Source: Pedobacter sp. MR2016-24
GTDB taxonomy: Bacteria > Bacteroidota > Bacteroidia > Sphingobacteriales > Sphingobacteriaceae
DNA length: 64,000 bases
Direction: 5' to 3'
Assembly (NCBI RefSeq): GCF_026239655.1
Contig: NZ_JAPIVO010000001.1
Location: 496,001-560,000 of the forward strand
The notes beneath the pieces are model-generated. The model saw only the letters and a program-made list of their open reading frames with translations. It had not been told where the DNA came from and ran no database searches. Shown here one piece after another: positions 32,827 to 59,588 of the stretch (within the stretch, counting starts at the first letter, position 1; every line of letters starts with the position of its first letter). Both the position numbers and the translations under genes were made by a program.

Positions 32827-32860
32827 AATTTAAATATTTGGTTAGATTTGGAATGGTGTT

Positions 32861-34366: not shown

Positions 34367-34375
34367 AGTTTCTAT

Positions 34376-35074
34376 TTATTGGCCGTAATAGGAATCAACA
34401 CCGTGTTTCCTGTCATAATGTTTTTTAATTAATGCATCTTTCATTGGTCGTACTTCCCTGTTAATCTGTTCGGTCAGAAAAGCCATTTTAGCCAGTTCTT
34501 CTACAACAGCGCTGTTATAAACTGCTTTGTCTGCCGTTTTGCCCCAGGTAAAAGGCGCATGGTTTCCTACCAGTATCATTTCTACTTCAGTATAACTTAA
34601 ACCTGATTCTTTTAAATGATCTATGATCTGAAAACCAGTTTCGTACTCATAATTCCCTTTTATCTTCTCATCGCTCATCGGTGGCGCACAAGGAATACTG
34701 GCAGTGGTATGGTCAGCATGTGTTGTCCCGTAAACAGGAATAGACTTTAGAGATTGCGCCCAGGCAGTTCCGTAAGTGGAATGTGTATGCACAATGCCCC
34801 CTATTTCTTCCCAATGTTTGTAAAGCACTGCATGCGTTTTTGTATCAGATGACGGTCTGAGGTCGCCCTCTACTGTATTGCCATCAAAATCTACAATCAC
34901 CATATTTGCGGGCGACAGTTCTTCGTAAGGAACGCCGCTGGGTTTTATAGCAAATACTTTTTTCTCCCGGTCTGCTGCACTGGCATTGCCGAAAGTAAAA
35001 AGTACCAATCCGAGTTGAGGCAGCTTCATATTGGCGGCGTAAGCTTTCTCCCTGATATCCTGATAAGTATTCAT
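34376..35074 (-). CDS. araD: L-ribulose-5-phosphate 4-epimerase
   Basis: Epimerises L-ribulose-5-P to D-xylulose-5-P, a zinc-dependent class II aldolase-fold enzyme. The 232-residue protein shows TFGNASAADREKKVFAIKPSGVPYEEL, the zinc histidines in IVHTHSTYGTAWAQ (about His94 and His96), HADH and a later VGNHAPFTWG zinc-ligand region. Length matches the family. Second gene of the ara operon, 45 bp after araB. Confidence 0.96.
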   Translation of the reverse strand: MNTYQDIREKAYAANMKLPQLGLVLFTFGNASAADREKKVFAIKPSGVPYEELSPANMVIVDFDGNTVEGDLRPSSDTKTHAVLYKHWEEIGGIVHTHSTYGTAWAQSLKSIPVYGTTHADHTTASIPCAPPMSDEKIKGNYEYETGFQIIDHLKESGLSYTEVEMILVGNHAPFTWGKTADKAVYNSAVVEELAKMAFLTEQINREVRPMKDALIKKHYDRKHGVDSYYGQ

Positions 35075-35119
35075 GGTTTCTTATTGTTTTTAATTGAATT
35101 CATGAGCTTGCAGGCCCGG

Positions 35120-36802: not shown

Positions 36803-36839
36803 TAAATAATTAAATGTCTAATTAACGTTTAATTATTTA
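36803..36839 (-). promoter_or_regulatory. Inverted repeat in the araB leader, candidate operator
   Basis: Arms TAAATAATTAAA and TTTAATTATTTA (12 bp, perfect) are separated by 13 bases. It lies between a -7 element and the araB start codon. It could be bound by the Nudix-type regulator encoded next door or act as a leader hairpin; no experimental data. Confidence 0.5.
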
Positions 36840-36856
36840 GTAAATGAAATATTAGC

Positions 36857-36864
36857 CAAAAATA
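36857..36864 (-). promoter_or_regulatory. -7 promoter element of the ara operon
   Basis: The minus strand reads TATTTTTG, matching TAnnTTTG, 54 bp before the araB ATG. The -33 spacing is not ideal (TTG with 23 bp), so confidence is limited. Confidence 0.42.
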
Positions 36865-36909
36865 TTTGTAAAATTAATGGTGTGAAGCAATTGAGGTATA
36901 ATCCGGATC

Positions 36910-37617
36910 TTAGCTGATCAGATTCTCCGGATTGGGAATGAAATTTAAAAACGCCTGGAATTTTGCTTTGTACTTTTTCTTATCCAGCTTAAAATAAAAT
37001 GCCCCTTTTTTAGAATTCGATTTGTCTTTTTCTTCCAGTTTGATCAGCAGACCGGTTGAGGTGAGTTTCCTGATGAAATTCCTGTTGTCAATCTTTGTAT
37101 TGTAAACCCCTTCATATAAACTTTGCAGTTGCGGGATAGTAAATTGTTTTGGCAGTAATTCGAATAGAAGGGGATGCAGCGCTGCTTTATATCTTATTTT
37201 CTTTTTCGCAATTTCTACCATCTCCTCATGATCAAAAATCAGCTTAGGCATTTCATTAACAGGAAACCATTCTGCGTGATAGCGGTCGTTCAACTGGGTT
37301 TCGTATTTATGAATATCAATTAAGGCGAAATAAGCTACAGATACCACGCGTTCTTTAGGATCCCTTCCCGGAGTGCCGAAAGCTTGCAGCTGTTCCAGGT
37401 ATACACCATCAAGACCGGTTAATTGCAGCAGAATTTTATTGGCGGCTTCATCCAGACTTTCATTTTCTTCAATAAAGCCTCCCATCAGACTCCATTTGTC
37501 TTTTTCCGGTTCAAATCCTCTTTTGATGAGCAGGATCTTTAAGTTTTCTCCATCAAATCCAAAAATGATGCAATCTACTGCAAGCAGCATCCTGGTTTCT
37601 GTCGTATAGTCGATCAT
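36910..37617 (-). CDS. Nudix-fold transcriptional regulator, AraR-like
   Basis: A 235-residue protein with an N-terminal Nudix domain and a C-terminal winged-helix domain (about 150-235, with LQSLYEGVYNTKIDNRNFIRKLTSTGLL). The Nudix box is degenerate: Gly47 and Glu53 remain, but the catalytic RE..EE segment reads KILLQL (residues 61-66), so hydrolase activity should be lost. Nudix-related AraR regulators with arabinose as effector are known in Bacteroides; the location beside araB-galM supports the same role here. It is 107 bp upstream of araB on the same strand and divergent from galM. Confidence 0.85.
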   Translation of the reverse strand: MIDYTTETRMLLAVDCIIFGFDGENLKILLIKRGFEPEKDKWSLMGGFIEENESLDEAANKILLQLTGLDGVYLEQLQAFGTPGRDPKERVVSVAYFALIDIHKYETQLNDRYHAEWFPVNEMPKLIFDHEEMVEIAKKKIRYKAALHPLLFELLPKQFTIPQLQSLYEGVYNTKIDNRNFIRKLTSTGLLIKLEEKDKSNSKKGAFYFKLDKKKYKAKFQAFLNFIPNPENLIS

Positions 37618-37693
37618 TAAACTTTAATTAGGTATAGCAGATTATGCAATATATTAGATAAAAGATTTATAAGTACAAAATAATCATAAATAT

Positions 37694-37736
37694 ATTAATC
37701 GTTGTTTTGACGGTTAATGTAAAATTATCTAATTTG
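37694..37736 (+). promoter_or_regulatory. Candidate promoter/operator region of galM
   Basis: TTTG at 37706-37709 and an imperfect -7 element ending TTTG at 37736 have about the right spacing for a Bacteroidota promoter. ATTAATCGTTG (37694-37704) overlaps the -33 side and recurs upstream of the sugar transporter gene at 60861. ATTAATCGT also faces ACGGTTAAT as a partial inverted repeat. Confidence 0.4.
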
Positions 37737-37769
37737 CCGCTGACTATTTATAAACTGTAAAGAATAATT

Positions 37770-38936
37770 ATGAAAACGAACCACAAGATTTTTATTGCGG
37801 CACTACTAGTGTCAGGCGCACTGGCCGGTTGCAATCCTTCGGAAAAAAAAGCTGCATCTGCAGATAGCTCAACAGTTAAAACGCTGCCGGATTCGGGTGC
37901 ATTTGCAGGTACAACGGATCAGAAGAAAACACATTTATTTGTATTAAAGAATAAGGATGGGGCAGAGGCTGCGATTACAAATTTTGGCGGACGCTTGGTT
38001 TCATTGCTGGTAAAAGATAATAAAGGAGCACTGGTGGATGTGGTTTTAGGGCATGACAGTCTGAAATCTTATCAGCGAAAGGAAGAGTTTTTCTTTGGTG
38101 CCCTGATCGGACGATATGGAAACAGAATTGCGAAAGGTAAATTTACACTGGATGGTAAGTCTTATCAACTGGAAGTGAATGATGGTAAAAATACATTACA
38201 TGGGGGTTTCAATGGCTTTTATAAAAAAGTGTGGGAAGGTAAACAGCTCGATGACCATACGCTTGAACTGAGTTATGTGTCTAAAGATGGAGAAGGCGGC
38301 TACCCGGGCACTTTAAACGTAAAGGTGACCTATTCCCTGGAAGATGATAATTCCCTGAAAATTGCCTATAGTGCTACTACCGATAAAGCTACAGTAGTTA
38401 ATTTGACTAATCATGCCTACTTTAACCTTAACGGAGCCGGAAATGCAACGATCACTGATCATTTGCTTACGCTGGAAGCGGATGAATATACACCTGTAGA
38501 TACCACTTTGATTCCAACGGGAAAATTGCAGAAAGTAGCTGGTACAGCATTCGATTTTACCAAACCAAAACTGATAGGTGCCGAAATTGATGCAAATGAT
38601 CCCCAGTTAAAAAATGGAAAAGGTTATGATCATAACTGGGTGTTGAGAAAAGGTACAGGATTACGTAAAGCAGCTACGCTAGAAAGTACTAAAACAGGTA
38701 TTGTTATGGAGGTACTGACAGAAGAGCCGGCTATCCAGTTTTACAGTGGCAATTTCCTGACTGATCAAATGAATTATGGTAAGGGAGGTGCAACTTATGG
38801 TTACCGCTCAGCCTTATGTCTGGAAACCCAGCATTTCCCTGATTCACCCAACCAGCCATCTTTTCCTTCAACAGTATTGAAGCCTGGTCAGGAATACAAG
38901 ACGGTGTCTGTTTATAAATTTTCTGTAAAAAAATAA
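37770..38936 (+). CDS. galM: Aldose 1-epimerase, lipoprotein form
   Basis: Interconverts alpha and beta anomers of aldoses. The 388-residue protein has a lipoprotein signal with lipobox LAGC (Cys21), so it acts outside the cytoplasm, probably at the inner face of the outer membrane. The GalM fold shows ALIGRYGNRIAKGKF, LHGGFNGFYKKVW, NLTNHAYFNL (catalytic His) and LETQHFPDSPNQPSFPST (catalytic Glu). It is divergent from the Nudix regulator and 61 bp upstream of tkt. Anomer interconversion could supply the importable form of arabinose. Confidence 0.93.
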   Translation: MKTNHKIFIAALLVSGALAGCNPSEKKAASADSSTVKTLPDSGAFAGTTDQKKTHLFVLKNKDGAEAAITNFGGRLVSLLVKDNKGALVDVVLGHDSLKSYQRKEEFFFGALIGRYGNRIAKGKFTLDGKSYQLEVNDGKNTLHGGFNGFYKKVWEGKQLDDHTLELSYVSKDGEGGYPGTLNVKVTYSLEDDNSLKIAYSATTDKATVVNLTNHAYFNLNGAGNATITDHLLTLEADEYTPVDTTLIPTGKLQKVAGTAFDFTKPKLIGAEIDANDPQLKNGKGYDHNWVLRKGTGLRKAATLESTKTGIVMEVLTEEPAIQFYSGNFLTDQMNYGKGGATYGYRSALCLETQHFPDSPNQPSFPSTVLKPGQEYKTVSVYKFSVKK

Positions 38937-38997
38937 ACTCTTTGAAACAGGATGACAGTTTATTCTATTAATAGAGTGTTACCAATAAAATCTAAAC

Positions 38998-41007
38998 ATG
39001 GATTCAAATCTTAAAATCGAAGAATTAGCAATAAATACCGTTCGTACTTTATCAATTGATGGCGTACAGAAAGCAAATTCGGGTCACCCTGGTATGCCTA
39101 TGGGCGCTGCTCCTATGGGGCACGTATTGTATTCACATTATATGAACTTTAATCCTAAAAACCCTGACTGGGCAAATAGAGACAGGTTTATTTTGTCTGC
39201 AGGTCATGGTTGTATGTTACAGTACAGTCTGTTGCACCTTACCGGGTTTAATGTAACTATAGACGATCTGAAAAACTTTCGCCAGCTTAACAGTAAAACT
39301 GCTGGTCACCCTGAATACGGTTTGATTGATGGGGTTGACGTAACTACTGGTCCATTGGGACAGGGCTTTGCAAATGGAGTTGGCTTTGCTATCGGACAAA
39401 AGAATTTAGCGGCAAGATACAATAAACCGGGATTTGAGCTGTTCGACTATAATATTTATGCAATTTGCAGTGATGGTGATATGATGGAAGGGGTTACTTC
39501 CGAAGCAGCTTCGCTTGCTGGTCACCTTGAACTGGGCAATATGATTTATCTTTACGATGATAACCATATTTCTATTGAAGGCAGTACCGATATCGCATTC
39601 AATGAAGATGTAGCGAAACGTTTCGAAGCTTATAACTGGCATGTGCAGACAGTAGAGGATGGCAATGATATCACGGCTATCATTAATGCCGTTCGCAATG
39701 CGAAGGCAGAGAAACAAAAGCCGTCACTCATTAAAGTACGTACACAAATTGCTTACGGTAGTCCGAATAAAGTAAATACAGCTGGTTCACATGGATCGCC
39801 ATTGGGTGCAGATGAGATCAGGCTCGTTAAAGAATTTTTCGGCTTTAACCCTGATGAGTCATTTGCAGTTCCCGCGGAAGCAGCGGCCTATTATGCAGCA
39901 GCCGGTGAAAAAGGAACAAAAGCTAACCAGAAATGGGACGAACTTTTCGAACAATACAGAGCGGAGTTTCCTGAACTTGCAGCAGAATATGAATTGGCTG
40001 CATCGGGCGAGCTTCCGGCAAACTGGAAAGAATCTCTTCCTGTATTCGCCCCTTCTAAAGATAAAATGGCTACGCGTCAGGCTTCAGGAAAGGTTTTGAA
40101 TGCTATAGTTGACAGTCTGCCCGGATTAATCGGTGGAGCTGCGGATTTAGCGCCTTCAACTGAGACAAACCTGAAGAAACATAATTCCTTCACTTCAGAA
40201 GACAGAAGCGGACGTAATTTTCACTTTGGTATCCGCGAGCATGCCATGGGATCAGCGTTAGTTGGTCTGGCGCTGACTAAAGGTGTAATTCCTTTTGGTG
40301 CTACCTTTCTGATGTTCTCTGAATATATGCGTCCGCCGATCCGTCTGGCCGCAATTATGAAGATCCGTCCGATTTTCGTTTACACGCATGATAGTATTGG
40401 TTTAGGAGAGGATGGAACTACACATCAGCCAGTAGAGCAATTGATTTCACTGCGTTCTATTCCAAATATCACGGTGATCCGACCCGCAGATGCAAATGAA
40501 ACTGCACATGCATGGCGTGTTGCATTAGAGCATAAAGACGGTCCGGTAGTACTGGTATTTACGCGACAAGGTTTGCCTGTGCTTGATCAGGATAAATATG
40601 GTAAAGCTGAAGGTTTGGAAAAAGGTGCTTATATCCTGTCAGAGCCAGAAGGTCGGCCAGAACTGATTCTTATAGCTACAGGATCTGAAGTTGCACTCAT
40701 TATGGATGCCCAGGCGAAACTGAAAGAAGAAGGAATTGCAGCGCGTGTAGTGAGCATGCCATCATGGGAATTATTCGAAAAACAGGATGCTGCTTATAAA
40801 GAAGAAGTGTTTCCAAAAGCAATCAGAAAACGCCTTGCTGTGGAAACAGGTTCACCATTGGGCTGGCATAAATATGTTACCGATGAGGGTGATATTATTG
40901 CAATGAATACTTTCGGAGAATCTGCACCTGCAGAAGAGCTGTATAAAGTATTTGGCTTTACGATTGACAATGTAGTGGGCAAAGCCAAAGCATTATTAGG
41001 TAAATAG
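38998..41007 (+). CDS. tkt: Transketolase
   Basis: Moves two-carbon units in the pentose phosphate pathway, using thiamine diphosphate. The 669-residue full-length enzyme shows ANSGHPGMPMGAAPMGH at the N-terminus, the ThDP motif SDGDMMEGVTSEAASLAG...DDN (about 155-185), the pyrimidine domain FHFGIREHAMGSALVG and the C-terminal domain. It follows galM at the arabinose locus, where it would process xylulose-5-P made by AraD. A bidirectional terminator follows 21 bp later. Confidence 0.96.
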   Translation: MDSNLKIEELAINTVRTLSIDGVQKANSGHPGMPMGAAPMGHVLYSHYMNFNPKNPDWANRDRFILSAGHGCMLQYSLLHLTGFNVTIDDLKNFRQLNSKTAGHPEYGLIDGVDVTTGPLGQGFANGVGFAIGQKNLAARYNKPGFELFDYNIYAICSDGDMMEGVTSEAASLAGHLELGNMIYLYDDNHISIEGSTDIAFNEDVAKRFEAYNWHVQTVEDGNDITAIINAVRNAKAEKQKPSLIKVRTQIAYGSPNKVNTAGSHGSPLGADEIRLVKEFFGFNPDESFAVPAEAAAYYAAAGEKGTKANQKWDELFEQYRAEFPELAAEYELAASGELPANWKESLPVFAPSKDKMATRQASGKVLNAIVDSLPGLIGGAADLAPSTETNLKKHNSFTSEDRSGRNFHFGIREHAMGSALVGLALTKGVIPFGATFLMFSEYMRPPIRLAAIMKIRPIFVYTHDSIGLGEDGTTHQPVEQLISLRSIPNITVIRPADANETAHAWRVALEHKDGPVVLVFTRQGLPVLDQDKYGKAEGLEKGAYILSEPEGRPELILIATGSEVALIMDAQAKLKEEGIAARVVSMPSWELFEKQDAAYKEEVFPKAIRKRLAVETGSPLGWHKYVTDEGDIIAMNTFGESAPAEELYKVFGFTIDNVVGKAKALLGK

Positions 41008-41028: not shown

Positions 41029-41067
41029 AAGGGGTATCTGTTCATTTCAAATGACAGATACCCCTTT
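41029..41067. terminator. Bidirectional terminator between tkt and susD-like gene
   Basis: A 13-bp perfect stem (AAGGGGTATCTGT with ACAGATACCCCTT), extended by a further CATTT/AAATG pairing after one bulged base, with A-rich and T-rich flanks on both sides. Confidence 0.9.
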
Positions 41068-41115: not shown

Positions 41116-42549
41116 TTAGTTTACATCAAACCACAATCTGGTAGTGAGCAAATCTGCTCCCTGATGTGCAACAGCAGCTTTGTATCCTTCGGGATTTAAA
41201 GATTGCTCCGTTCCGGGATAGATAAAACGAACCGGAATCTTTCCTCCAAGCGAACCTGCAACCGCAGGAGTAAGTACTGGATAGTCAAGCCTCCTCCATT
41301 CTGAGAAGGCTTCTAAACCCTGCCCGAATAGTGCAATCCATTTCTGCTCGCCAATTGATTTTTTATAATTTGCGGCATCATACTTTACAGCAGGCAAATC
41401 CTGGTATGCAGCAATCTGCGTGGTATTCGAAATTCCATACTGCAGAAAAGAAGCTTCAATAGCGAGGTTATATAAGGTAGCCGGGTTCTCGCTGGTAAAT
41501 CCTCTTGCCGCAGCTTCTGCACGGTCAAATAATACTTCAGCATAACTGATAATTACAGCCGGAGCTTTTGGCGCTGTAAAATAAGCACCAGGCTTGGATG
41601 TACTTGTCAGCAGTTTAGAAGCATCACCTGCTAGTAAACCATTCTGTAAACCTGTATATAATTGGGTAGCTGATGCTTTGGCTGCATAGACAGGTAAGCG
41701 GGGATCATTCAGTGTAACCAGCTTATCCACAATCGTATTACTGATTCTGTAATCATCTCTTGTATCAAAAAGGTTGCTGATCGGATTCTGATTTGGAGAA
41801 TCTGAATAAACCAATTGTGCATTTTCTGCAGTTGCATTGATGTAGCCGGTTCCTTCCGCTTGTATTTCTGCAATCGTCTGCCTGGCTGTTTCTGGTTCAC
41901 GGTCTGCAATGCGTAAGGCAATCCTTAAGCGAAGTGAGTTAGCCAGTTTTTTCCATGATACAATTGTATTGTTATAAATAATATCTCCGGCAATTGCCTT
42001 TCCTGCAGGATCAAGTAAGGACTGTGCTGCTTTTAGATCTGCAAGCACACCCAGATAAACATCCTTTTGCGCATCATATTTTGGCGTAAGGTATTGATCA
42101 ATATTTCCCGCTTGTGAATAGGGAATGTCACCATAGGCGTCGGTCAGTAGGCTGAAGACCCAGGAGCGAAGAACCAGTGCTACCCCTTTGTAGTTTGGAT
42201 TTGATTGTGCGTCAGCAAGTTTAATCAGCTGATTCAGATTCACCACACCCTTACTGAAACCTTCCGTCCATAAGTCCTGAAAATCTGAATTCGCATAGAT
42301 ATACCGGTCCGGATCCGTGTACTGTACTTTTGCCCAATGCTGTACAAACAACAGGCTTGAATTCATATTATTGGTTGTTCCCCAATAGGTATCTGAAGAA
42401 CTTTTAATCGCACCTGTTAACAGATAATCAGGTTGCGCTTTTTCAGCTGCATTTGGGTTGATATTCGTTTCGTCTAATGTTTTCTTGCATGAACTCAATG
42501 CCAGCAGAAAAATACCTGATAAGAAAAGGGATATATGTTTTGTCTTCAT
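41116..42549 (-). CDS. SusD/RagB-type nutrient-binding outer membrane lipoprotein (SusD-like_2)
   Basis: A 477-residue lipoprotein with lipobox LSSC (Cys21) followed by KKTLDETNINPNAAEKAQPDYLLTGAI, the N-terminal signature of the SusD-like_2 group. A helical body with NNMNSSLLFVQHWAKVQYTDPDRY and ends in a loop region (KAAVAHQGADLLTTRLWFD). It forms the lid of the SusC channel on the cell surface. The frame extends 40 codons upstream into susC; the ATG at 42549 starts the signal. It begins 4 bp after the susC stop. The substrate is not predictable from sequence; the leader riboswitch suggests a sulfur compound. Confidence 0.92.
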   Translation of the reverse strand: MKTKHISLFLSGIFLLALSSCKKTLDETNINPNAAEKAQPDYLLTGAIKSSSDTYWGTTNNMNSSLLFVQHWAKVQYTDPDRYIYANSDFQDLWTEGFSKGVVNLNQLIKLADAQSNPNYKGVALVLRSWVFSLLTDAYGDIPYSQAGNIDQYLTPKYDAQKDVYLGVLADLKAAQSLLDPAGKAIAGDIIYNNTIVSWKKLANSLRLRIALRIADREPETARQTIAEIQAEGTGYINATAENAQLVYSDSPNQNPISNLFDTRDDYRISNTIVDKLVTLNDPRLPVYAAKASATQLYTGLQNGLLAGDASKLLTSTSKPGAYFTAPKAPAVIISYAEVLFDRAEAAARGFTSENPATLYNLAIEASFLQYGISNTTQIAAYQDLPAVKYDAANYKKSIGEQKWIALFGQGLEAFSEWRRLDYPVLTPAVAGSLGGKIPVRFIYPGTEQSLNPEGYKAAVAHQGADLLTTRLWFDVN

Positions 42550-42553
42550 GATT

Positions 42554-45500
42554 TTAGAATTTGAAATTAAGGTTGAAACCAAGGGAGCGTACAGAAGGTA
42601 GACCCAGATCTTCCAGACCTTGTCCGTTACCAGTGTTAAACGCAGTTTCCGGATCAATATTAGGGACATCTTTATGTATAATAAAGAGGTTCCTGCCTAC
42701 TAAGGATATGGCTGCACTTTGTATACCAAGCGATTTGATCCACTGTGCCGGCAGGGTATAACCCAGTTTTACTTCTCTTAGTTTCACATAAGTTGCACTG
42801 TATACAAAAGCCTCGTCTGCATTGGTAAAGCCTTTGTAATATTGTTGTGCAGGTAAAATAGTGGTGTTTGCTGTACCATCTGCCAGAACTCCCTGGAATA
42901 CCATTCCGTCATCGTATACGGTAGCTCCTGCTGGTGCAGCAGTACCAGGAGAAAGTCCTATTGCTTTACCAGCTGTGTTATTTCCTGCATAGTAGTAATT
43001 CAATCCTCCATTTTCTGCACCGCGTCCCGGCAGGGTGGAGGCAAGTACACCGGTGTAAGTACCTGTCCGGTTCGTATTGGAATAAATTTTACCACCTACA
43101 TGGGCATCTACCAGCACACTCAGATTAATTCCTTTATAAGCGAAGCTGTTTGTAATTCCACCAATCCAGTCAGGCGTATATTTTCCAAGAATCTGTTTAC
43201 TTGCACTGATAGTTGGTGTTCCGTCTGCTTTTACAATAATCTCACCAGCAGCATCTCTCACAAATGCAGTTCCAAATAGGGTACCGTAAGGCTGGCCGAC
43301 TGTTGCCAAAACTTGTACTGTTCTGTTAGTACCCAAAACAAAGCTTTGGACATTCTCATAGAGTGATTTTACTTCTGAACGGTTTCTTGAATAGTTAAGA
43401 CTGATATCCCAGGTAAAATCCTTTGTTTTGATTGGTGATACGCCCAGTTGTGCTTCAAGACCTTTGTTATTAATTGTTCCGCCATTAACTAATTTTTGGC
43501 TATATCCTGTTGAGGGACTGACATCCAGGTTTAGAATCTGGTCCACACTGTTTGTATTGTACACACCAATATCCGCATGAACCCTATTGTTAAATAGGCC
43601 AACTTCTATACCTGCTTCTGCAGACTTGGTTGTTTCAGGTTTCAGGTTTGGATTGAGGTTTACCTTATTGAGTAACTGTTGCGGATTGCCATTAAATGGC
43701 GCTTTGAAATCATATGTATTGATCAATTGATAAGGGGTAGCATCTTTTCCTACTTTAGACCAGCCACCGCGGATTTTAGCGAAACTAAGGGTATTACTTT
43801 TGATGTCAAATGCTTCAGTAAGAATAAAACTTCCGTTTACCGAAGGATAAAAATAAGAGCGGTTTTTTGCCGGCAGGGTAGTGGACCAGTCATTTCTGGC
43901 AGTTAAATTCAGGTAAGCATAATTTCTGAAACCCAATTGTGCAGAACTGAATGCACTATATACTTTTTGTTTGGTATAAACATTAGAAGAGATCAGTGCA
44001 TCGCGGGAATTACTTAAAGTATATAACCCGTTAACGGCAAGCTTGGAGGCCAGCTGATCATTATTTTCTAAAGTTGTGGTCCTGATATTTCCACCCGCAA
44101 GGATATCCAGATTGAAATCATCATTCAGTTTCCTGCTGAAATCCAGGCGGCCTTCTGTATTGTTTTCATTAAATGTATAGGCATCTTCTTCATAGGAGCC
44201 AAAAGGTGTACCATTGGTACCATAGGCTACCTTGATTTTTCTGCGGTCTGTATAGTAGTCATTCCCGGTTCTGAAATTAGCTGATAAACCATCAATGATC
44301 TTATAGTTTAATTCAGCACTTCCTATAAACCTGTTACGAACCTGCCCTACAGTGTTTTCATAAGCAATAAAATAAGGGTTGCTGTAATAACTGTTGTTCC
44401 AGTTGATGTTATTTCCATTCTCATCCTGATAGTTTTTCAACTGATCAATATCTACCTGACGACCAAACCAGGTAAACTGAAGCATGGTGCTACTTGCTCT
44501 TTTTCCTCCGGCACCAGGAAGATTGGCTGCATTGCTGCTGATATAGTTAGCTAATGCGTTGAAAGTAAGTTTAGGCGTAATCTTGTAAGAAGTATTCAGC
44601 ATAAAAGAGTTTTTCGACTGCGAAGAGTTCGGAATTACACCTTTCTGATCTGTATTGTTATAAGAAAAACGCAGGTCGTACTTATCGCCGGAACCTGATA
44701 TGGCAATGCCATTATTCAAAGTACGTCCCGTATCGAAAAAATCGCGCACATTATCCGGATGCGCTACAAACGGTACTGCTACACCATTCGAAAAGAATTG
44801 TGTAATCAGTCTTCCATCCAATCTTGGTCCCCAGCTTTCATCCACGCCATCGTTGATACTGCCAACTCCATCTTTACCATTAACGTATTTAAACTGACCA
44901 TTCAGTCCCTGTCCGTATGAGTTCTGGTAATCTGGTAAAGTCAGTAAAGTAGAAAATGTAGCATTGGAATTTACGCTGATGCCTAAGCCTTTGGTATTTT
45001 TACCTTTCTTGGTAGTGATCAGAATTACCCCGGCAGCGGCTCTTGAACCATATAAGGCTGCTGCATTCGGCCCCTTTAAGACCGTCATGCTTTCTATATC
45101 TTCAGCGTTGACATCAGAAATTGTATTGGCAAAATCCCTTGATCCGGCGTTGCCCAGGTTCTGTGTATTGTCTACCGGAATACCATCAATCACAAACAAA
45201 GGCTGGTTATTTCCTGAAATGGAAGTTTCCCCACGAATGATAATTCTGGAAGAACCCATGTCACCCTGACTATTGGTGGTTTGCACTCCGGCGATCTTTC
45301 CTGATAAAGCATTCACCAGATTGGCTTCTTTAGCTTCAGAAATATCTTTTGATTTCAGTTCCTGAATGGTATATCCTAAAGATTTTTTCTCTTTAGAAAT
45401 GTTTAATGCCGTAACGACTACTTCACTAAGTGCATTAGCTGCTTCAGCCAGCTGAACGTTAAGTGCAGTTTTTTCTGCAGTTACCCTGATCTCCTGAGTA

Positions 45501-45742
45501 CCAAATCCAATTGAGATAATTCTCAGAATATCATTCGGATTTGCAGTAATACTGAATTTACCATTCACATCGGTTTGCGTACCCGTGGTGCTACCTTTAA
45601 TATTGATACTTACCCCGGGCAGGGGAAGTCCGTTTGATTTCTCGGTTACCGTACCGGAAATTTTAACAGACTGCGCTACCGCCGTCTGAAAAATTAAAAA
45701 GGATAAGACAATCCCTAATAAGTATTTGTAAGTTTTGGACAT
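42554..45742 (-). CDS. SusC/RagA-family TonB-linked outer membrane transporter
   Basis: A 1062-residue TonB-dependent transporter. Signal peptide (about 1-23), a carboxypeptidase-regulatory-like domain (ISGTVTEKSNGLPLPGVSINIKG, to about 105), the SusC signature in the plug (LIVVTAL-type ALSEVVVTALNISKEKKSLGY and SRIIIRGETSISGNNQPLFVIDGIPVDN), then the 22-strand barrel ending SLGFNLNFKF. It imports a nutrient bound by the partner SusD-like lipoprotein. It is preceded by a roughly 430-base leader with a SAM-I riboswitch and a short upstream ORF. Confidence 0.95.
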   Translation of the reverse strand: MSKTYKYLLGIVLSFLIFQTAVAQSVKISGTVTEKSNGLPLPGVSINIKGSTTGTQTDVNGKFSITANPNDILRIISIGFGTQEIRVTAEKTALNVQLAEAANALSEVVVTALNISKEKKSLGYTIQELKSKDISEAKEANLVNALSGKIAGVQTTNSQGDMGSSRIIIRGETSISGNNQPLFVIDGIPVDNTQNLGNAGSRDFANTISDVNAEDIESMTVLKGPNAAALYGSRAAAGVILITTKKGKNTKGLGISVNSNATFSTLLTLPDYQNSYGQGLNGQFKYVNGKDGVGSINDGVDESWGPRLDGRLITQFFSNGVAVPFVAHPDNVRDFFDTGRTLNNGIAISGSGDKYDLRFSYNNTDQKGVIPNSSQSKNSFMLNTSYKITPKLTFNALANYISSNAANLPGAGGKRASSTMLQFTWFGRQVDIDQLKNYQDENGNNINWNNSYYSNPYFIAYENTVGQVRNRFIGSAELNYKIIDGLSANFRTGNDYYTDRRKIKVAYGTNGTPFGSYEEDAYTFNENNTEGRLDFSRKLNDDFNLDILAGGNIRTTTLENNDQLASKLAVNGLYTLSNSRDALISSNVYTKQKVYSAFSSAQLGFRNYAYLNLTARNDWSTTLPAKNRSYFYPSVNGSFILTEAFDIKSNTLSFAKIRGGWSKVGKDATPYQLINTYDFKAPFNGNPQQLLNKVNLNPNLKPETTKSAEAGIEVGLFNNRVHADIGVYNTNSVDQILNLDVSPSTGYSQKLVNGGTINNKGLEAQLGVSPIKTKDFTWDISLNYSRNRSEVKSLYENVQSFVLGTNRTVQVLATVGQPYGTLFGTAFVRDAAGEIIVKADGTPTISASKQILGKYTPDWIGGITNSFAYKGINLSVLVDAHVGGKIYSNTNRTGTYTGVLASTLPGRGAENGGLNYYYAGNNTAGKAIGLSPGTAAPAGATVYDDGMVFQGVLADGTANTTILPAQQYYKGFTNADEAFVYSATYVKLREVKLGYTLPAQWIKSLGIQSAAISLVGRNLFIIHKDVPNIDPETAFNTGNGQGLEDLGLPSVRSLGFNLNFKF

Positions 45743-45859
45743 AATTTTAATGAATTAAATTTTGGGTACATCAATTCCATGACTAACATCGCTATGTTTC
45801 CCTAGCGGCTAATCTTAAGATATAATGAAAGAATATTTGGGGTGTTTGTGTTTACTGGA

Positions 45860-45967
45860 TTAACAGCAATATAGACGGCACATATGCATGAGATGGAGAC
45901 TATTCGTATGTCTGCCAAAAGAGGGAGAGCTGTTGCTCAGTTTTAATTTCTTACTGTCTGTTTTCAT
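45860..45967 (-). CDS. Upstream ORF (35 codons) ending Cys-Arg-Leu-Tyr-Cys-Cys, candidate leader peptide
   Basis: ATG at 45967 opens a 35-codon frame on the susC mRNA leader, after the SAM riboswitch and 117 bases before the susC ATG. The product begins MKTDSKKLKL and ends MHMCRLYCC followed by TAA. Three cysteines in the last six codons, right before the stop, is the pattern of leader peptides that sense cysteinyl-tRNA supply. Inner ATG codons at 45889 and 45883 could give MHMCRLYCC or MCRLYCC alone. That it is translated is an inference; conservation in relatives is the key test. Confidence 0.45.
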   Translation of the reverse strand: MKTDSKKLKLSNSSPSFGRHTNSLHLMHMCRLYCC

Positions 45968-46046
45968 TGCTTGTTTAATTGATACGTTATTGAATTGTAT
46001 TTCATGTAATCAGTCATCAATGATTAATCTGCTTACTCAGAACTAC

Positions 46047-46149
46047 TGCTTATCTTCTCTGCATTTTGCGGATAAGGTTAGCACCTTTTACTAATGTATA
46101 GGTTGCTAAGACTTCAAAGGGCCTTTCCCTCGGTCTTTCTGGATAAGTA
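46047..46149 (-). promoter_or_regulatory. SAM-I (S-box) riboswitch upstream of susC
   Basis: The minus strand holds the S-box aptamer in order: 5' P1 strand CTTATC, K-turn/P2 strand CAGAAAGACCGAGGG, GGCCC then TTTGAAGTCTTAGCAACC, a P3 hairpin, then GGTGCTAA, and the 3' P1 strand GATAAG (AGAGAAGATAAG). P1 pairs CTTATC (46147-46142) with GATAAG (46054-46049), and AAGAC with GTCTT forms P2. The conserved GCAACC, GGUGCUAA and AGAGAAGAUAAG blocks are all present. S-box aptamers bind SAM and usually repress when SAM is plentiful. The promoter motif lies 29 bases upstream. The expression platform is not obvious; no classical terminator follows. Confidence 0.9.
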
Positions 46150-46177
46150 AAAAATCAATGAACGTCTAATTCTTTGG

Positions 46178-46185
46178 CAAAGATA
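46178..46185 (-). promoter_or_regulatory. -7 promoter element for the riboswitch-susCD transcript
   Basis: The minus strand reads TATCTTTG, a perfect TAnnTTTG, 29 bp before the aptamer. With initiation 5-7 bases further on, the riboswitch would lie at the 5' end of the mRNA, as expected. The -33 box is weak (TTTAG). Confidence 0.55.
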
Positions 46186-46309
46186 TCAATTATCTACTAA
46201 ATCTATAGTATTTATGTCTTTATTTGTTTTTCTGAGATTGGGGAGACAATTGATCACATAGCTCTAATTGAAAGGGGGGGTAATTTTAAGGGAATATGAA
46301 CGCAAACGC

Positions 46310-46358
46310 AAAAAAACTCCAGTAGGACTGCTCGTATGATGATGAGGCCTACCGGAGT
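46310..46358 (-). terminator. Terminator of the RND efflux operon
   Basis: Minus strand: an 11-bp stem with one G-U pair (ACTCCGGTAGG with CCTACTGGAGT) and a run of seven T after it, 9 bp after the stop codon of the adaptor gene. Confidence 0.85.
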
Positions 46359-46367
46359 GATCAGGTT

Positions 46368-47543
46368 TTATTCTTCAGCGGAGCCGGCCGACATAGATTG
46401 CAGGTAAAAAGCGCCTTTTGTGACTATTTTCACATTTTCAGCGAGTTGATGAAGTGGATTGATCTGTATAAACCCTAATTCAGTTACACCTGTTCTTACC
46501 TCTGTTTTTACAAAATTTACAGCCGGCTTACTTTCTGCTGTTACTACAAAAATGTATTCTTTACCTTCCGAACGGATCACTGCATCAACTGGTACGGCCG
46601 GTTTTAGTTCTGTTCCCACGCTGATTAATGCGGTCACATACATCCCTGGTATCAAATTCTGATGTGCTGTATTCTTAATTACGGCATGTACAATTACACC
46701 CTTGCTTTCATTTTCAAATGACTTATTGATTCCATTTATGGTTCCGCGGATTTGCTGATTCTCCTGGTTGGTCAACATGAAATCTACTGACTGACCAATT
46801 TTTACCTTCATCAGGTCTTTCTCAAAAACGATCAGGTCACAATGGATCTTTGAATTATCTACTACTTCCATAATAGACGTTCCTGGTTGGACAAATGCAC
46901 CAGTATTAGCCGTTATTTGTCCGACAGTACCACTAATTGGAGATAACAGTGGAAATTGTGAGATAATATTTCCTCCTGATATTTTTCCGATAGCAATGCC
47001 CATCTGACGCAACTGACTTTCAAATGCTGAAATACGTGCCCGCTCGGAATTGTAGTTTGCTGCGGCCGACTGATAAAATTTTCCTGTTCCGGCGCCTGCA
47101 GCTTTTAACTGCTTCTGCCGCTCGTATTCTGCCGCTACATAGCTGAAGTTATTTTTTGCAGTCAGATACTCCTGCTGAATTCTGATCAGATCCTGATTCT
47201 CAATTGTTGCGAGTACCTGTCCCTTTCTGACCTGCTGGCCTTCCAGCACGGTAATCTTCCGGATTATTCCACCAGATAGCACACTTACGTCTGCTTTATT
47301 CTGCGGGGGTACAGCAAGCTGTCCATTTGCTTTAACAATGGTATTCAGATTCTTTTGTTCTATCTCACCGATACTAATGCCCACGGATTGCATCTGCTCG
47401 TTTGTAAGTGATAAAGCGGTTGTTTTATCTTCTTCCGCTGGTTGCTGTTTTTCCTTACCTTCATCAGAAGTCCCGCCCGAACAAGAAAGGAAAAATAGGA
47501 CAGAGAAGATAAAGAAGACGGATTTATATTTTATGAATTTCAT
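46368..47543 (-). CDS. RND efflux periplasmic adaptor subunit (CusB/CzcB type)
   Basis: A 391-residue lipoprotein adaptor of the HlyD/MFP group; lipobox FLSC (Cys21) then GGTSDEGKE. Domains: barrel-sandwich/lipoyl halves (VLSGGIIRKITVLEGQQVRKGQVLATIEN and QFPLLSPISGTVGQITANTGAFVQPGTSIMEV), a helical hairpin between them (about 125-190), beta-barrel and membrane-proximal domains at the C-terminus. It bridges the RND pump and outer-membrane channel to export metal ions. It starts 1 bp after the pump-channel fusion gene, so it is the last gene of the operon. Confidence 0.9.
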   Translation of the reverse strand: MKFIKYKSVFFIFSVLFFLSCSGGTSDEGKEKQQPAEEDKTTALSLTNEQMQSVGISIGEIEQKNLNTIVKANGQLAVPPQNKADVSVLSGGIIRKITVLEGQQVRKGQVLATIENQDLIRIQQEYLTAKNNFSYVAAEYERQKQLKAAGAGTGKFYQSAAANYNSERARISAFESQLRQMGIAIGKISGGNIISQFPLLSPISGTVGQITANTGAFVQPGTSIMEVVDNSKIHCDLIVFEKDLMKVKIGQSVDFMLTNQENQQIRGTINGINKSFENESKGVIVHAVIKNTAHQNLIPGMYVTALISVGTELKPAVPVDAVIRSEGKEYIFVVTAESKPAVNFVKTEVRTGVTELGFIQINPLHQLAENVKIVTKGAFYLQSMSAGSAEE

Positions 47544-47544
47544 G

Positions 47545-50500
47545 TTATTCTCCTTTTAAAAATTGTAGCTGGATAGCCGATTGGTTTAAGTGATCTACGG
47601 CTGTGATGTACGATAGTTTATTTTGTATGGCTGAAGAAATATTCTGGATATACTCTACATAACCTATTTCGCCCAGATCGAATGAGACCTGTGTAATCCG
47701 CAATTGTTCATCTGCCTGTTTGAGTCCGGCAGCCTGATAATAAGTTATTGCCTGCCTGAAGTTTTGATATTGCTGTAACTCCTGCTCATATTTCAGACGT
47801 ACCAGCGACTGACTTTGCTCAAAATTTGTCTGCGCAATTTTCCCTGCCAGTTGTTCCCCTTTTATGCGTGACTTATTTGCCTGGGTAAACACTGGTATAG
47901 CTAATCCGACTTGTATACCTGCGATTCTTGTTCCGGGAAAATAGCCGCGGTTTGTGCCTGCAGGATTGAAGGAGTTGATGACGAGCTGCTGGCTATAACC
48001 TACAACGAAATCAGGCATGCCTTTTGATTTTTCTACTTTTACACGAGCATTGGCAACGGTAACATGTTGAAGTTCATATTTCAGCTGGCTGTTTTCTGCG
48101 AGGGCGATTGTATCATCTGCCGCAGTAATCAGGAGTGGTAAGTGGTTTTCAGCAAAGACCACCCGTTCCTTTGTGTTTAACAGCTGTTGCAGGACAAGTT
48201 CGTGGCTTCTTAATTCTGCCTGTGCCGCCAACCTGGCTAACTGAATCTCCTGATATTTATTCCTTGCGCTCATCAATTCCAGATTGGAAGTTTCTCCGGA
48301 TTTAAAACGGACTTCAGACTTTTTGATAAAGCTCGTATAAAGGCTATCCTGGTAATTCAGCAGGCGCAAAATTTCCCTTTGAGCTAAGCAACCGAAATAA
48401 GCCTGTCTGACACTCCTGGTGATTTCTGTTCTTAACTGATTACCTGCAAGTTTGCTCAGGTTTGTCTGCTGAATGAGCAGTTTCTTTTGATTTTTATATA
48501 AACCGGGCCATGCAAAACTCTGTGTTACGCCCACTGCGTTATCCATATTTCCGCCACTTGTAGGGTCTTGTGTTAACATGAGCTCTGTTTTAGGAATATC
48601 CAAAGCCGACTTTTGAAGTAGGCGTGATTGTGAGATGGTCAATTCGGAAGACCGCAGCTGTAAATTATTTTTCAGGCTCAAGGCAATTATACTGTCCAGC
48701 GTAAGTCCTTTATCCTGCGCACTGACTGGAGTTGCCAGTCCTAAGCCTATTATCATCAATAGGATCAGGACAGCTTTAGGTGTTTGCTTATCCGAATTTT
48801 TCTGACCATTCACTCTTTCCCTGCCATTAAATAAGATGTATAAACAAGGCAGAACAAATAATGTGAGAATGGTTGCCGTAAGTAATCCGCCAATCACTAC
48901 CGTAGCTAATGGGCGCTGTACCTCCGCACCTGCGCTGGATGATAAAGCCATTGGCAGAAAACCAAAAGAAGCCACCGCTGCGGTCATCAATACCGGCCTT
49001 AAGCGTAATCTGGTTCCATGCAGCACGCGCTGATAAACATCATCCATCCCTTCTTCTTTCAGCTGGTTGAACTGGCCGATGAGCACAATGCCATTTAATA
49101 CGGCCACACCAAACAGCGCGATAAAACCGACACCGGCAGAAATGCTAAAAGGCATGTCTCTCAACAGCAAGGCCGCTATCCCACCCATGGCAGCCAATGG
49201 TACAGCTGTAAATATCAGCATACTCTGCTTGAAGGATCTGAAAGTCACAAAAAGCAAAGTAAGGATAAACAGTAATGCAGCCGGCACTGCAATCATCAGC
49301 TTTTGTTTTGCTGCCTGCAGGTTCTGGAACTGACCGCCGTAAGTAAGATAATACCCTGACGGTAACTTAATGTGCGCATCAACCAGCTGCTGAATCTCTT
49401 CCACTGTTCTTTCCACATCCCGGCCCTTGATATTGAAACCTACAAAAATTCTTCTTTTACCATCTTCGCGAGACACCTGGGCGGGTGCATCTTTAAAGGA
49501 GATATCCGCTACCTGGCTTAAAGGGACTTTATTGCCGGATGATAAAGGAATGAGCAGGTTTTGCACATCGGAGATGTTTTGTCTCAATGCTGATTGTAAC
49601 CGCACTACCATATCAAAGCGTTTTTCTCCTTCAAATACTACCCCGGCCACATTTCCTGCAAATGCGGTGCGTAAAATCATATTGATGGCACTAATATTTA
49701 GTCCGTATTGCGCCATCTTGTCGCGGTTATAATTTACGGTGATCTGGGGTAAACCACTTACCTTCTCTACATAAGGCTCCGTAAGGCCTGCCACAGGGGT
49801 GATTAATCTGGCGATTTTATCAGCTTCCAGCGCAAGCACATCGAGGTCATCGCCGTAGATCTTAATGGCAACATCCTGCCTGATTCCTGTCATCAGTTCA
49901 TTAAAGCGCATTTGCATCGGCTGCGTAACCTCTACGTTAATTCCGGGAATGACCGATAGTGTTTCTTCCATCTTCTCCATCATTTCTTCACGTGTAGCTG
50001 CAGAAGTCCATTCCTCTTTAGGTTTCATGGCCAGCATCATATCCCCGCGTTCCATAGGCATGGGATCTGTGGGGATTTCGGAACTGCCAATACGTGTTAC
50101 CGCCTGTTTCAATTCCGGAAATTTTGCTTTCAGCAATTGCTCTGCTTTGCCGAAAGTTTTCACTACTTCAGATAAAGAAGTCCCCTGCATCATCGCAATT
50201 TCTACTGTCAGATCTCCCTCTTCCAGGGTGGGGATAAACTCACCACCCATGCGGTTAAAGGCCCATAACGACAGACCAAAGAGTAGAAACGTAACGATCA
50301 CTATGCTTTTTTTACTGCGCAGTACCTTCACCAGCACACGCTGATAATGTTGTTGAAGAAAACTGATCAGGCGGTCTGAGATCGTTGTCTGATGTACCGT
50401 GTTTTTGCTTAATATCAAAGCACTCATCATCGGTACGTAAGTAAGTGATAAAATAAAGGCACCCAGAATGGCAAAAACTACGGTCTCTGCCATTGGCCTG

Positions 50501-51927
50501 AACATCTTTCCTTCAATGCCTACCAGCGCGAAAAGCGGCAGGTAAACCACCAGGATAATGATCTCGCCAAAAGCTGCACTGCTTCTGATTTTAGATGCTG
50601 CAGTATATACTTCTGTATCCATCTCTGCCTGCGATAACCTGGGTTTATCCGGAAACAGTTTGCTCTCCGTCAGCCGGAAAACGATAGCTTCAACGATAAT
50701 TACTGCACCGTCTACTATCAATCCGAAATCTATTGCACCCAAACTCATCAGATTGCCCGATACGCCAAATAAGCGCATCATCGCAAAAGCAAAAAGCATC
50801 GCTAAAGGAATCACGGAAGCAACCACTAAACCTGCGCGCAGATTACCGAGTAAAAGAACCAATACCAGTACGACAATCAAGGCCCCTTCCAGCAGGTTAG
50901 TTTTTACAGTGCCAATTGCGCGACCCACCAGTTCCGTCCTGTCAATAAAAGGTTCAATCACCACTCCCTCGGGCAATGATTTCCGGATTTGTACAATCCG
51001 CTCCTTTACATTTCTGATCACCTGGTTAAAGTTCTCTCCTTTTAACATCAGGGTAACTCCGGCAACTACTTCGCCTTCGCCATTTCTGGTGACTGCCCCA
51101 TAGCGGGTTGCGCTGCCAAACTGTACTTTCGCAATATCACGGATGAGTACCGGGGATTCCCCATTTGTTTTGACTACAATTTTACCGATATCTTCCAGTG
51201 ATTGTACCTGTCCGAGTCCCCTGATAAAATATACATTACTCTGTTGTTCTATATAAGAGCCCCCGGTATTTTCGTTATTCCGTTCGAGCGCCTCATAAAC
51301 ATCAGGAATTGTTAATCCTAACGAATTCAGCTGGTCATTGTCCAGCGCAATCTCATACTGTTTCACATATCCGCCCCATCCGCTTACTTCTGCTACTCCG
51401 GGTGTACCTGCAAGTTGGGTTCGGACGAGCCAGTCCTGCAACGTACGCAGATCAGTAGCGGTGTATTTTTTCTCAAACCCTTTTTTTGTATGCAGTACAT
51501 ACTGGTAAATTTCTCCGAGGCCGGTGGTAATTGGTGCCAGCAGCGGTTCTGTTAATCCTTTAGGAATATTGTTTTCCGCTTCTTTCAATTGTTCGTTTAC
51601 CTGCTGTCTTGCCCAGTAGATATCAGTGTCATCTTTAAAAACAAGTGTAATCACAGAAATACCTGAACGGGATATTGATCTTTTTTCCAGAATGTCGGGA
51701 ATATTCGCCATTGAAAGTTCTATGGGAGCTGTGATAAACTGCTCCACTTCCTGCGCGCCTAAACTTGGTGCCTGCGATATAATCTGCACCTGGTTATTTG
51801 TAATATCAGGTTGTGCATCCACCGGCAGGTGATATGCAGCGTAGATGCCCCAGAGAATCAATCCCATAGTCATCAACCCGATAGTTATTTTGTTCCTGAT
51901 AGAGAACGCTATAATCTTATCAAACAT
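47545..51927 (-). CDS. CusA/CzcA heavy-metal RND pump fused to a TolC-like outer membrane factor
   Basis: A 1460-residue fusion. Residues 1 to about 1040 are a complete heavy-metal RND transporter: twelve helices, two porter domains and the HME motif DFGLIVDGAVIIVEA (Asp400, Asp406), and a Met-rich stretch near 620-690 that fits copper/silver or zinc/cobalt handling. After a linker of about 10 residues, a second signal-like hydrophobic stretch ends PVSAQ (about 1051-1075). The remainder (about 1080-1460) is a TolC/CusC-type outer-membrane factor with the repeated helical hairpins. One frame, with no frameshift visible. Such fusions are found in Bacteroidota. Metal specificity is not resolved. 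Confidence 0.92.
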   Translation of the reverse strand: MFDKIIAFSIRNKITIGLMTMGLILWGIYAAYHLPVDAQPDITNNQVQIISQAPSLGAQEVEQFITAPIELSMANIPDILEKRSISRSGISVITLVFKDDTDIYWARQQVNEQLKEAENNIPKGLTEPLLAPITTGLGEIYQYVLHTKKGFEKKYTATDLRTLQDWLVRTQLAGTPGVAEVSGWGGYVKQYEIALDNDQLNSLGLTIPDVYEALERNNENTGGSYIEQQSNVYFIRGLGQVQSLEDIGKIVVKTNGESPVLIRDIAKVQFGSATRYGAVTRNGEGEVVAGVTLMLKGENFNQVIRNVKERIVQIRKSLPEGVVIEPFIDRTELVGRAIGTVKTNLLEGALIVVLVLVLLLGNLRAGLVVASVIPLAMLFAFAMMRLFGVSGNLMSLGAIDFGLIVDGAVIIVEAIVFRLTESKLFPDKPRLSQAEMDTEVYTAASKIRSSAAFGEIIILVVYLPLFALVGIEGKMFRPMAETVVFAILGAFILSLTYVPMMSALILSKNTVHQTTISDRLISFLQQHYQRVLVKVLRSKKSIVIVTFLLFGLSLWAFNRMGGEFIPTLEEGDLTVEIAMMQGTSLSEVVKTFGKAEQLLKAKFPELKQAVTRIGSSEIPTDPMPMERGDMMLAMKPKEEWTSAATREEMMEKMEETLSVIPGINVEVTQPMQMRFNELMTGIRQDVAIKIYGDDLDVLALEADKIARLITPVAGLTEPYVEKVSGLPQITVNYNRDKMAQYGLNISAINMILRTAFAGNVAGVVFEGEKRFDMVVRLQSALRQNISDVQNLLIPLSSGNKVPLSQVADISFKDAPAQVSREDGKRRIFVGFNIKGRDVERTVEEIQQLVDAHIKLPSGYYLTYGGQFQNLQAAKQKLMIAVPAALLFILTLLFVTFRSFKQSMLIFTAVPLAAMGGIAALLLRDMPFSISAGVGFIALFGVAVLNGIVLIGQFNQLKEEGMDDVYQRVLHGTRLRLRPVLMTAAVASFGFLPMALSSSAGAEVQRPLATVVIGGLLTATILTLFVLPCLYILFNGRERVNGQKNSDKQTPKAVLILLMIIGLGLATPVSAQDKGLTLDSIIALSLKNNLQLRSSELTISQSRLLQKSALDIPKTELMLTQDPTSGGNMDNAVGVTQSFAWPGLYKNQKKLLIQQTNLSKLAGNQLRTEITRSVRQAYFGCLAQREILRLLNYQDSLYTSFIKKSEVRFKSGETSNLELMSARNKYQEIQLARLAAQAELRSHELVLQQLLNTKERVVFAENHLPLLITAADDTIALAENSQLKYELQHVTVANARVKVEKSKGMPDFVVGYSQQLVINSFNPAGTNRGYFPGTRIAGIQVGLAIPVFTQANKSRIKGEQLAGKIAQTNFEQSQSLVRLKYEQELQQYQNFRQAITYYQAAGLKQADEQLRITQVSFDLGEIGYVEYIQNISSAIQNKLSYITAVDHLNQSAIQLQFLKGE

Positions 51928-59356: not shown

Positions 59357-59433
59357 GGTGGGAAATGAGGGGTTCGAACCCCCGACCCCCTCGGTGTAAA
59401 CGAGGTGCTCTGAACCAGCTGAGCTAATTTCCC
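59356..59433 (-). tRNA. tRNA-Val (anticodon TAC), copy 1
   Basis: On the minus strand a complete cloverleaf: acceptor GGGAAAT pairing with ATTTCCC, D arm with GCTCAGCTGGTTCAGAGC, anticodon stem CCTCG/CGAGG with loop TTTACAC (anticodon TAC, valine), T arm with TTCGAAC, discriminator A and encoded CCA. It is identical to a second copy 77 bp upstream. Confidence 0.97.
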
Positions 59434-59510: not shown

Positions 59511-59588
59511 TGGTGGGAAATGAGGGGTTCGAACCCCCGACCCCCTCGGTGTAAACGAGGTGCTCTGAACCAGCTGAGCTAATTTCCC
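59511..59588 (-). tRNA. tRNA-Val (anticodon TAC), copy 2
   Basis: Same 78-base sequence as copy 1, with encoded CCA and TAC anticodon. It is the promoter-proximal copy on the minus strand. Confidence 0.97.

Follow-up and report, generated by a model that had tools for sequence, protein, structure and literature searches.

Why does a SAM-I riboswitch stand in front of an outer-membrane SusC/SusD importer, and is it the only sensor on that leader? The question is raised by a minus-strand locus in the window, by which we mean the whole 64,000-nucleotide stretch of Pedobacter DNA analysed here. SusCD pairs can number dozens per genome (56 SusC matches were found in the genome of this strain), and we know of no substrate for most of them. 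We propose, at a probability of roughly two in three, that the riboswitch and a cysteine-ending short ORF behind it may form a two-input sulfur sensor in series, which would turn on a peptide-type importer only if both SAM and charged cysteinyl-tRNA are scarce. The features of the locus are as follows.

46178..46185, minus strand: presumed Bacteroidota-type -7 promoter box TATCTTTG (motif TANNTTTG), read from the sequence, 28 nt before the aptamer
46047..46149, minus strand: SAM-I (S-box) riboswitch aptamer, RF00162, model positions 1-108
45860..45967, minus strand: short upstream ORF of 35 codons, translated as MKTDSKKLKLSNSSPSFGRHTNSLHLMHMCRLYCC and stop, proposed cysteine leader peptide
42554..45742, minus strand: SusC-type TonB-dependent transporter, 1062 aa (TIGR04056, 652 bits; PF13715, Plug and TonB barrel domains)
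41116..42549, minus strand: SusD-type lipoprotein, 477 aa (PF12771, SusD-like_2, 364 bits)
41029..41066, minus strand: hairpin AAGGGGTATCTGT...ACAGATACCCCTT followed by CTTTTATTT, likely operon terminator, read from the sequence

The aptamer, its regulon and the importer

A preliminary description had read a complete S-box core on the minus strand and had named the RF00162 covariance model as its check. Both points were borne out: the model matched 46149-46047 over its full length at 72.6 bits, against a gathering score of 44.4 (E = 4.5e-15 in the whole window, 5.6e-17 in 45600-46400), and the P1 halves CTTATC/GATAAG, GCAACC and GGTGCTAA can all be read in the aptamer sequence. R1, a covariance model made from 27 related aptamers, the window's own among them, scored 96.1 bits on this aptamer. 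In an Rfam search of the window leader at E up to 1, RF00162 was the only RNA family found. The promoter motif that had been placed just upstream was also recovered, as TATCTTTG at 46185-46178; it is an instance of the motif TANNTTTG, which we take to be the Bacteroidota-type -7 box and which occurs within 60 nt upstream of 76 of 141 SAM-I aptamers (5.6% in mononucleotide shuffles). A sigma-70 scan gave no match.

The SusC/SusD genes of the SusD-like_2 group that had been described downstream are likewise present, as the scores above attest. The TonB-linked SusC has a carboxypeptidase-like domain, and the SusD lipoprotein lies directly downstream after a gap of 4 nt. The SusD signal peptide, read by eye, ends LSSC|KK, and the protein is 61-77% identical to that of 10 relatives in the genus. 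A 517-aa ORF for SusD was rejected, as its start lies too early, inside SusC; the ATG at 42549 was taken from the sequence.

The genome carries four SAM-I aptamers. Of the remaining three, one lies before metY-metX-hom, one before metH-metF and one before a NifS-like cysteine desulfurase with metN-metI-metQ; the MetX and the cysteine-desulfurase-like protein score below the NCBIfam cut-offs. Because these three sites sit on methionine and sulfur genes, a sulfur nutrient may fairly be inferred for the SusCD pair. Our aptamer search covered 59 genomes, this one included, of which 55 gave a match, and returned 141 aptamers (137 and the four of this genome). Sorted by the first gene on the same strand, they precede metH (48), metY (35), SusC (22), a cysteine desulfurase (10), a two-TlpA operon (6), a DUF4833 gene (6), metX (4), an M28 peptidase (3), metN (1), another TlpA-like gene (1) and four others, and one precedes no gene. 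In this sorting, genes were called by a simple ORF rule and clustered by blastp linking, and the protein family of each cluster was read from scans of one or a few of its members. The 22 SAM-I-SusC loci are spread over 21 of the 59 genomes, every one in the genus. The preliminary description had proposed looking for the same leader in relatives; an aptamer followed by SusC occurs in 21 of the 36 genus genomes searched, the present one included. When the window SusC was compared with the SusC of eleven such loci, ten were 62-80% identical; G023:C7 is a different SusCD, with 31% identity.

In four genomes (G011, G020, G029 and G035; loci L075, L101, L129 and L152), a SAM-I aptamer is followed by a gene of the M28-peptidase cluster, whose family was scanned in the G011 member, and then by a different SusC-cluster gene; in G029, a TlpA-like gene stands first in this operon. 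Three further pairs of loci (L064/L065, L072/L073 and L146/L147) each hold two divergent aptamers about 1 kb apart. One of these leads to a DUF4833 gene and the other to two TlpA-like proteins, a YceI protein and a SusC-clustering receptor (one member per family scanned), with a di-haem cytochrome c peroxidase also in the two-TlpA operon of G009 and G011.

What might the pair carry? Among solved chains, SusC is closest to 5fq6_B, which is BT2264 (446 bits, E 2.5e-132; next chain, 187 bits). Bt2263/64 and RagAB bind oligopeptides, as stated in an excerpt of PMC7782687. Their similarity to the window pair, compared at the protein level, is moderate. The same excerpt bears on the earlier idea that a SusCD pair serving something other than glycans would be a different use: such a use is not new. 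Because a sulfur regulon here meets the peptide kinship of SusC, sulfur-containing peptides are suggested as the substrate; the protein and regulon comparisons suggest that SusCD may import these, with cystine or glutathione possible too. A related view is that the two-input switch works as proposed on some other cargo, for example cystine, glutathione, a sulfonate, a sulfated glycan or a metal chelate. The closest solved chain to SusD by score, 5j5u, has a title that names no ligand, SusD-like_2 is a broad family, and the TlpA-like thioredoxin and cysteine desulfurase found in the operon of relatives would suit disulfides such as cystine or oxidised glutathione. Against this stand the wide gap between BT2264 and the next SusC chain, the M28 peptidase found together with another SusC in a SAM-I operon of relatives, and the finding of no glycoside hydrolase or sulfatase among the scanned window neighbours. 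We hold another cargo to be possible but rather unlikely, and keep peptides as the preferred substrate of the proposed sensor.

The surroundings of the pair in the window were also noted. Beside SusCD, at 31141-41007, lies an arabinose-type sugar cluster with a symporter, L-arabinose isomerase, ribulose-phosphate epimerase, FGGY kinase, aldose epimerase and transketolase; the transketolase gene converges on SusD, with the likely terminator between them. A CusA/CzcA-type RND pump of 1460 aa is encoded at 47545-51927 on the minus strand, and the C-terminal part of this protein matches the outer membrane efflux protein family, placing pump and outer-membrane channel in one polypeptide. Two tRNA genes of equal score, identical in sequence as printed, lie 80 bases apart at 59359-59433 and 59514-59588 on the minus strand.

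Cysteine-ending short ORFs in the leaders

The account of a SusCD pair under SAM-I control stands as far as the aptamer in front of a SusD-like_2 type SusCD is concerned; what it overlooked is a short ORF between the two that ends in cysteine. In the window, this ORF lies between aptamer and SusC and has the C-terminus ...MHMCRLYCC before its stop, with three Cys, a number below that in many relatives. When the 22 SAM-I-SusC leaders were read, a short ORF with Cys at or near its end was seen in 20. An automatic count of any ORF of 12-50 codons with terminal Cys between aptamer and SusC gave 16 of 22, against 1.3 expected from dinucleotide shuffles; G025 enters this count through a non-homologous ORF, which leaves 15 leaders with a Cys-terminal homologous ORF. 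In five genomes (G002, G007, G014, G025 and G030), the Cys is set back a few residues from the ORF end. Under the criterion of two or more Cys among the last 12 residues, 11 of the 22 SusC leaders have such an ORF on the sense strand and 1 of 22 on the antisense strand. The Cys run is kept while the remainder of the peptide diverges, as in MCRLYCC, SCWCCK, YMCCD, ESCFC, KNCCC and TAYCC.

The leaders of other SAM-I genes were counted in the same ways. Those of metH had no Cys-ending ORF (0/48; these leaders are short, with 0.2 expected) and none with at least two Cys in the last 12 residues (0/48). Among the small groups, a Cys-ending ORF was found before metX in 1 of 4, and before the desulfurase (0/10), two-TlpA (0/6), DUF4833 (0/6) and M28 (0/3) genes in none; at least two Cys in the last 12 residues occurred before metN in 1 of 1 and in the two-TlpA group in 1 of 6.

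The metY-metX-hom leader was considered as a control and rejected as such, being a second case of aptamer plus cysteine ORF. Here, the ORF behind the aptamer ends CMCCCI(G/Q/L) or similar, and at least two Cys fall in the last 12 residues in 34 of 35 leaders (antisense, 2 of 35); in 31 of these 34, the ATG lies 5-9 nt after the aptamer. The run does not reach the very last residue, and a strictly Cys-terminal ORF is found in 1 of the 35. The metY short ORF of the present genome reads MKTINQSLSGEIISANTFNPQQAACVCMCCCIG and stop, and that of G036, from another family of the class, ends CCCCCC. Behind the metY ORF (L006:4575-4792, alignment A4), there are two conserved hairpins, CTTCC...GGAAG and GCC(C/T)C...G(G/A)GGTACGC or similar. 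The latter shows compensatory changes, and 4 of 11 predicted pairs in the whole metY leader do so. In the metY leader of this genome, a search of Rfam at E up to 1 matched RF00162 and no family for the hairpin.

A second set of leaders was drawn from named species. From 329 SusD relatives in species genomes, the best 80 in the SusD alignment were taken, and 77 of these include the SusC start; they belong to Pedobacter, Mucilaginibacter, Hufsiella, Segetibacter, Ferruginibacter, Sediminibacterium and others. Several records are common to this set and the 59-genome set, which are therefore not independent. We counted ORFs of 15-50 codons within 350 nt ahead of SusC by the number of Cys in their last six residues, with expected values from shuffles. 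Among these best 80 of 329, at least one Cys was found in 69 of 77 (22.7 expected), at least two in 57 (2.48), at least three in 38 (0.19) and at least four in 14 (0.01). For the same four thresholds, DNA further downstream at the same loci gave 15, 3, 1 and 1 of 75 (18.9, 1.77, 0.08 and 0.01 expected), and the 350 nt before metH, aptamer included, gave 7, 4, 0 and 0 of 48 (10.2, 1.00, 0.04 and 0.00 expected); in metH, a mixed control, the ORFs overlap the aptamer or precede it instead of following it. As a further control, 30 of the 56 SusC matches of the present genome were taken, of which 22 had a usable start, and these gave 4, 0, 0 and 0 of 22 (6.0, 0.65, 0.04 and 0.00 expected). The idea that a Cys-ending ORF is a general trait of SusC leaders was rejected on the 0 of 22 with at least two Cys, a weak control in that only 0.65 was expected. 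Cys codons are clustered at the ORF end beyond chance in the SusC leaders, in the orthologues and in the metY leaders.

How closely does the cysteine element follow the riboswitch? Searched with R1, the 77 orthologues carry a same-strand aptamer within 560 nt of SusC in 36 cases, at 560-3000 nt in 25 and none found in 16, the upstream DNA covered being at most about 2.9 kb (less than 1.8 kb for L228, L232, L250, L263 and L277 of the 16). In L232 and L242, there is an aptamer on the opposite strand. All 25 loci at 560-3000 nt have a gene of one or both of two kinds in the interval from aptamer to SusC: a TlpA-like thioredoxin in 23 and a cysteine-desulfurase-like gene in 4. By the criterion of two or more Cys among the last 12 residues, the ORF is present in 31 of the 36, 23 of the 25 and 12 of the 16, respectively. 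These 12 are orthologues for which the upstream DNA covered shows no same-strand aptamer, so the cysteine element occurs both with and without the riboswitch.

These counts bear on a simpler explanation, in which the SAM-I riboswitch alone regulates SusCD and the short ORF is untranslated or has no regulatory role. The aptamer is strong, and three loci manage without the ORF: G013 and G019 have riboswitch and SusC but no Cys short ORF, as does L206. The substitution test was neutral, with no protein-level constraint seen; pN/pS in clade A, a group of eight close relatives, was 0.71 in frame against 0.71 and 1.04 in the other frames, and for the metY ORF 0.78 against 0.98 and 0.69, and 0.56 against 0.74 and 0.72. 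Such an explanation, however, leaves Cys-ending ORFs at more than 10-fold over shuffles in two partly overlapping sets, the absence of ORFs with at least two Cys before 22 other SusC genes of the same genome, and the ORF in those 12 of 16 orthologues. We consider it improbable, and prefer the two-input sensor. From their sequences, G013 and G019 look like deletions of the ORF between two AACACACCAATT repeats, which flank it in relatives; in these two loci (L082 and L097), the riboswitch stands alone, 131-133 nt from SusC, and they provide nature's own comparison for what the ORF contributes.

The cysteine element may extend beyond these leaders. A genome-wide scan with TGYTGYTGYTRA returned 82 matches, and the 30 inspected yielded one more case, before a TonB receptor. 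This poly-Cys ORF, MKTDLHFISSHTASPIEEKLFQIGCCC and stop (L314:9811-9822, minus strand; C15:153310 in the present genome), lies 191 nt ahead of a TonB-dependent receptor of 853 aa (L314:7058-9619, minus strand), on a contig that carries none of the four aptamers of this genome. A wider cysteine regulon of outer-membrane receptors is possible.

Hairpins and a proposed mechanism

No terminator-like site was found in the window between aptamer and SusC. Because of this, the read-out in the window would more likely be translational or Rho-dependent. Among the relatives, a terminator-like hairpin lies 30-62 nt after the aptamer in 11 of the 22 SusC leaders, and the leaders of clade A have two terminator-like hairpins in series. 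The first of these, GAGCACTTCTGATTTAAGGGGTGCTTTTTTTT, stands behind the aptamer. G031 was the one leader folded, and there the hairpin arm CUGAUUUAA pairs, as an alternative, with the 3' strand of P1, UUAAGUCAG; an exchange between terminator arm and P1 strand is the usual S-box mode. The second, CCTGTTAAAAT...ATTTTAACAGGCTTTTTT, holds the last Cys codon and the stop codon of the ORF in its 5' arm. By eye, it is present in all 8 aligned clade A leaders, with an interrupted U run in G011 and G034; the strict pattern is matched by 6 of 8. When 90 leaders, a mix of both sets, were scanned by script, any terminator-like hairpin after the ORF was found in 38, and one beginning near the ORF stop in 23.

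We propose that the leader works in three steps. First, SAM bound to the aptamer would shut the transcript off, as suggested by the terminator after the aptamer in the eight close relatives and by the CUGAUUUAA/UUAAGUCAG exchange in G031. Second, a ribosome waiting on the Cys codons before the stop would keep the downstream RNA from taking its off form; in clade A, a ribosome at the last Cys codon would cover an arm of the second hairpin and so permit read-through. Third, SusC and SusD, identified by family, would take up peptides, most usefully those containing Met or Cys, and the imported peptides would feed MetNIQ and cytoplasmic sulfur metabolism. It is very improbable that the Cys-ending ORF is no attenuator and instead encodes a small product with a function of its own, for instance as a peptide signal or in binding metal: some relatives do have long Cys runs (CCCCCC in L209 and L246), but it is the C-terminal Cys that is kept while length and remainder vary, the run precedes metY too, and the stop codon of the clade A ORFs forms part of a hairpin arm with U residues behind it.

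We lean slightly towards a broader form of the sensor proposed here, in which a SAM-I riboswitch stacked on a poly-Cys leader would act as a logic gate and would mark a widespread Bacteroidota SusCD family for the import of sulfur peptides, the cysteine half being the older and wider of the two.

Relation to known systems

As a SAM-I riboswitch of the RF00162 family, the window copy is ordinary in its full-length match above the cut-off and in its three genome siblings, which precede methionine and sulfur genes; it differs in preceding an outer-membrane SusCD pair and in being stacked on a Cys-ending short ORF. Two-sensor leaders are known, such as SAM-I with B12 before metE in Bacillus clausii and a Mg sensor with mgtL in Salmonella. 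Like these tandem riboswitches and riboswitch-plus-leader-peptide arrangements, the window leader would place two RNA sensors in one leader to combine two signals; unlike them, it would pair a SAM aptamer with a cysteine codon sensor and thus read both sulfur amino acids.

The cysteine half has its own precedents. Polycysteine short ORFs occur in mycobacteria (Canestrari et al. 2020, as cited in an excerpt of PMC13236596), and leader peptides of cys operons, without a recognisable terminator, have been predicted in Actinobacteria (excerpt of PMC1262725). In both, as here, a run of Cys codons lies near the stop of a short ORF before sulfur genes, and the actinobacterial leaders, as that excerpt describes them, resemble the window in having no recognisable terminator; unlike them, the present ORF belongs to another phylum, follows a riboswitch and precedes a SusCD importer. 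A closer likeness to clade A is offered by uORFC-8-2 before cysS in Rhodobacterales (passage of PMC8632094), which has tandem Cys codons in a uORF and a terminator-like stem. It differs in that its Cys usually lie at codons 14-15 and that cysS is not an import gene, and the passage makes no mention of a riboswitch. Leader-peptide attenuation has been noted for amino-acid operons in Flavobacterium (excerpt of PMC9723704). SAM-I riboswitches, cysteine leader peptides and peptide SusCDs are each already known, and it is their combination on one leader that seems new: among the open-access matches listed, taken by titles and opening lines, we found no report of a SAM riboswitch or a cysteine leader peptide joined to SusC.

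If the leader does respond to both sulfur amino acids, one large group of SusCD pairs would gain a testable substrate class, and the outer-membrane import of Bacteroidota would prove capable of being linked to sulfur status. The locus would also be a small, natural case in which a riboswitch and a leader peptide compute together, and would extend cysteine leader peptides to the Bacteroidota.
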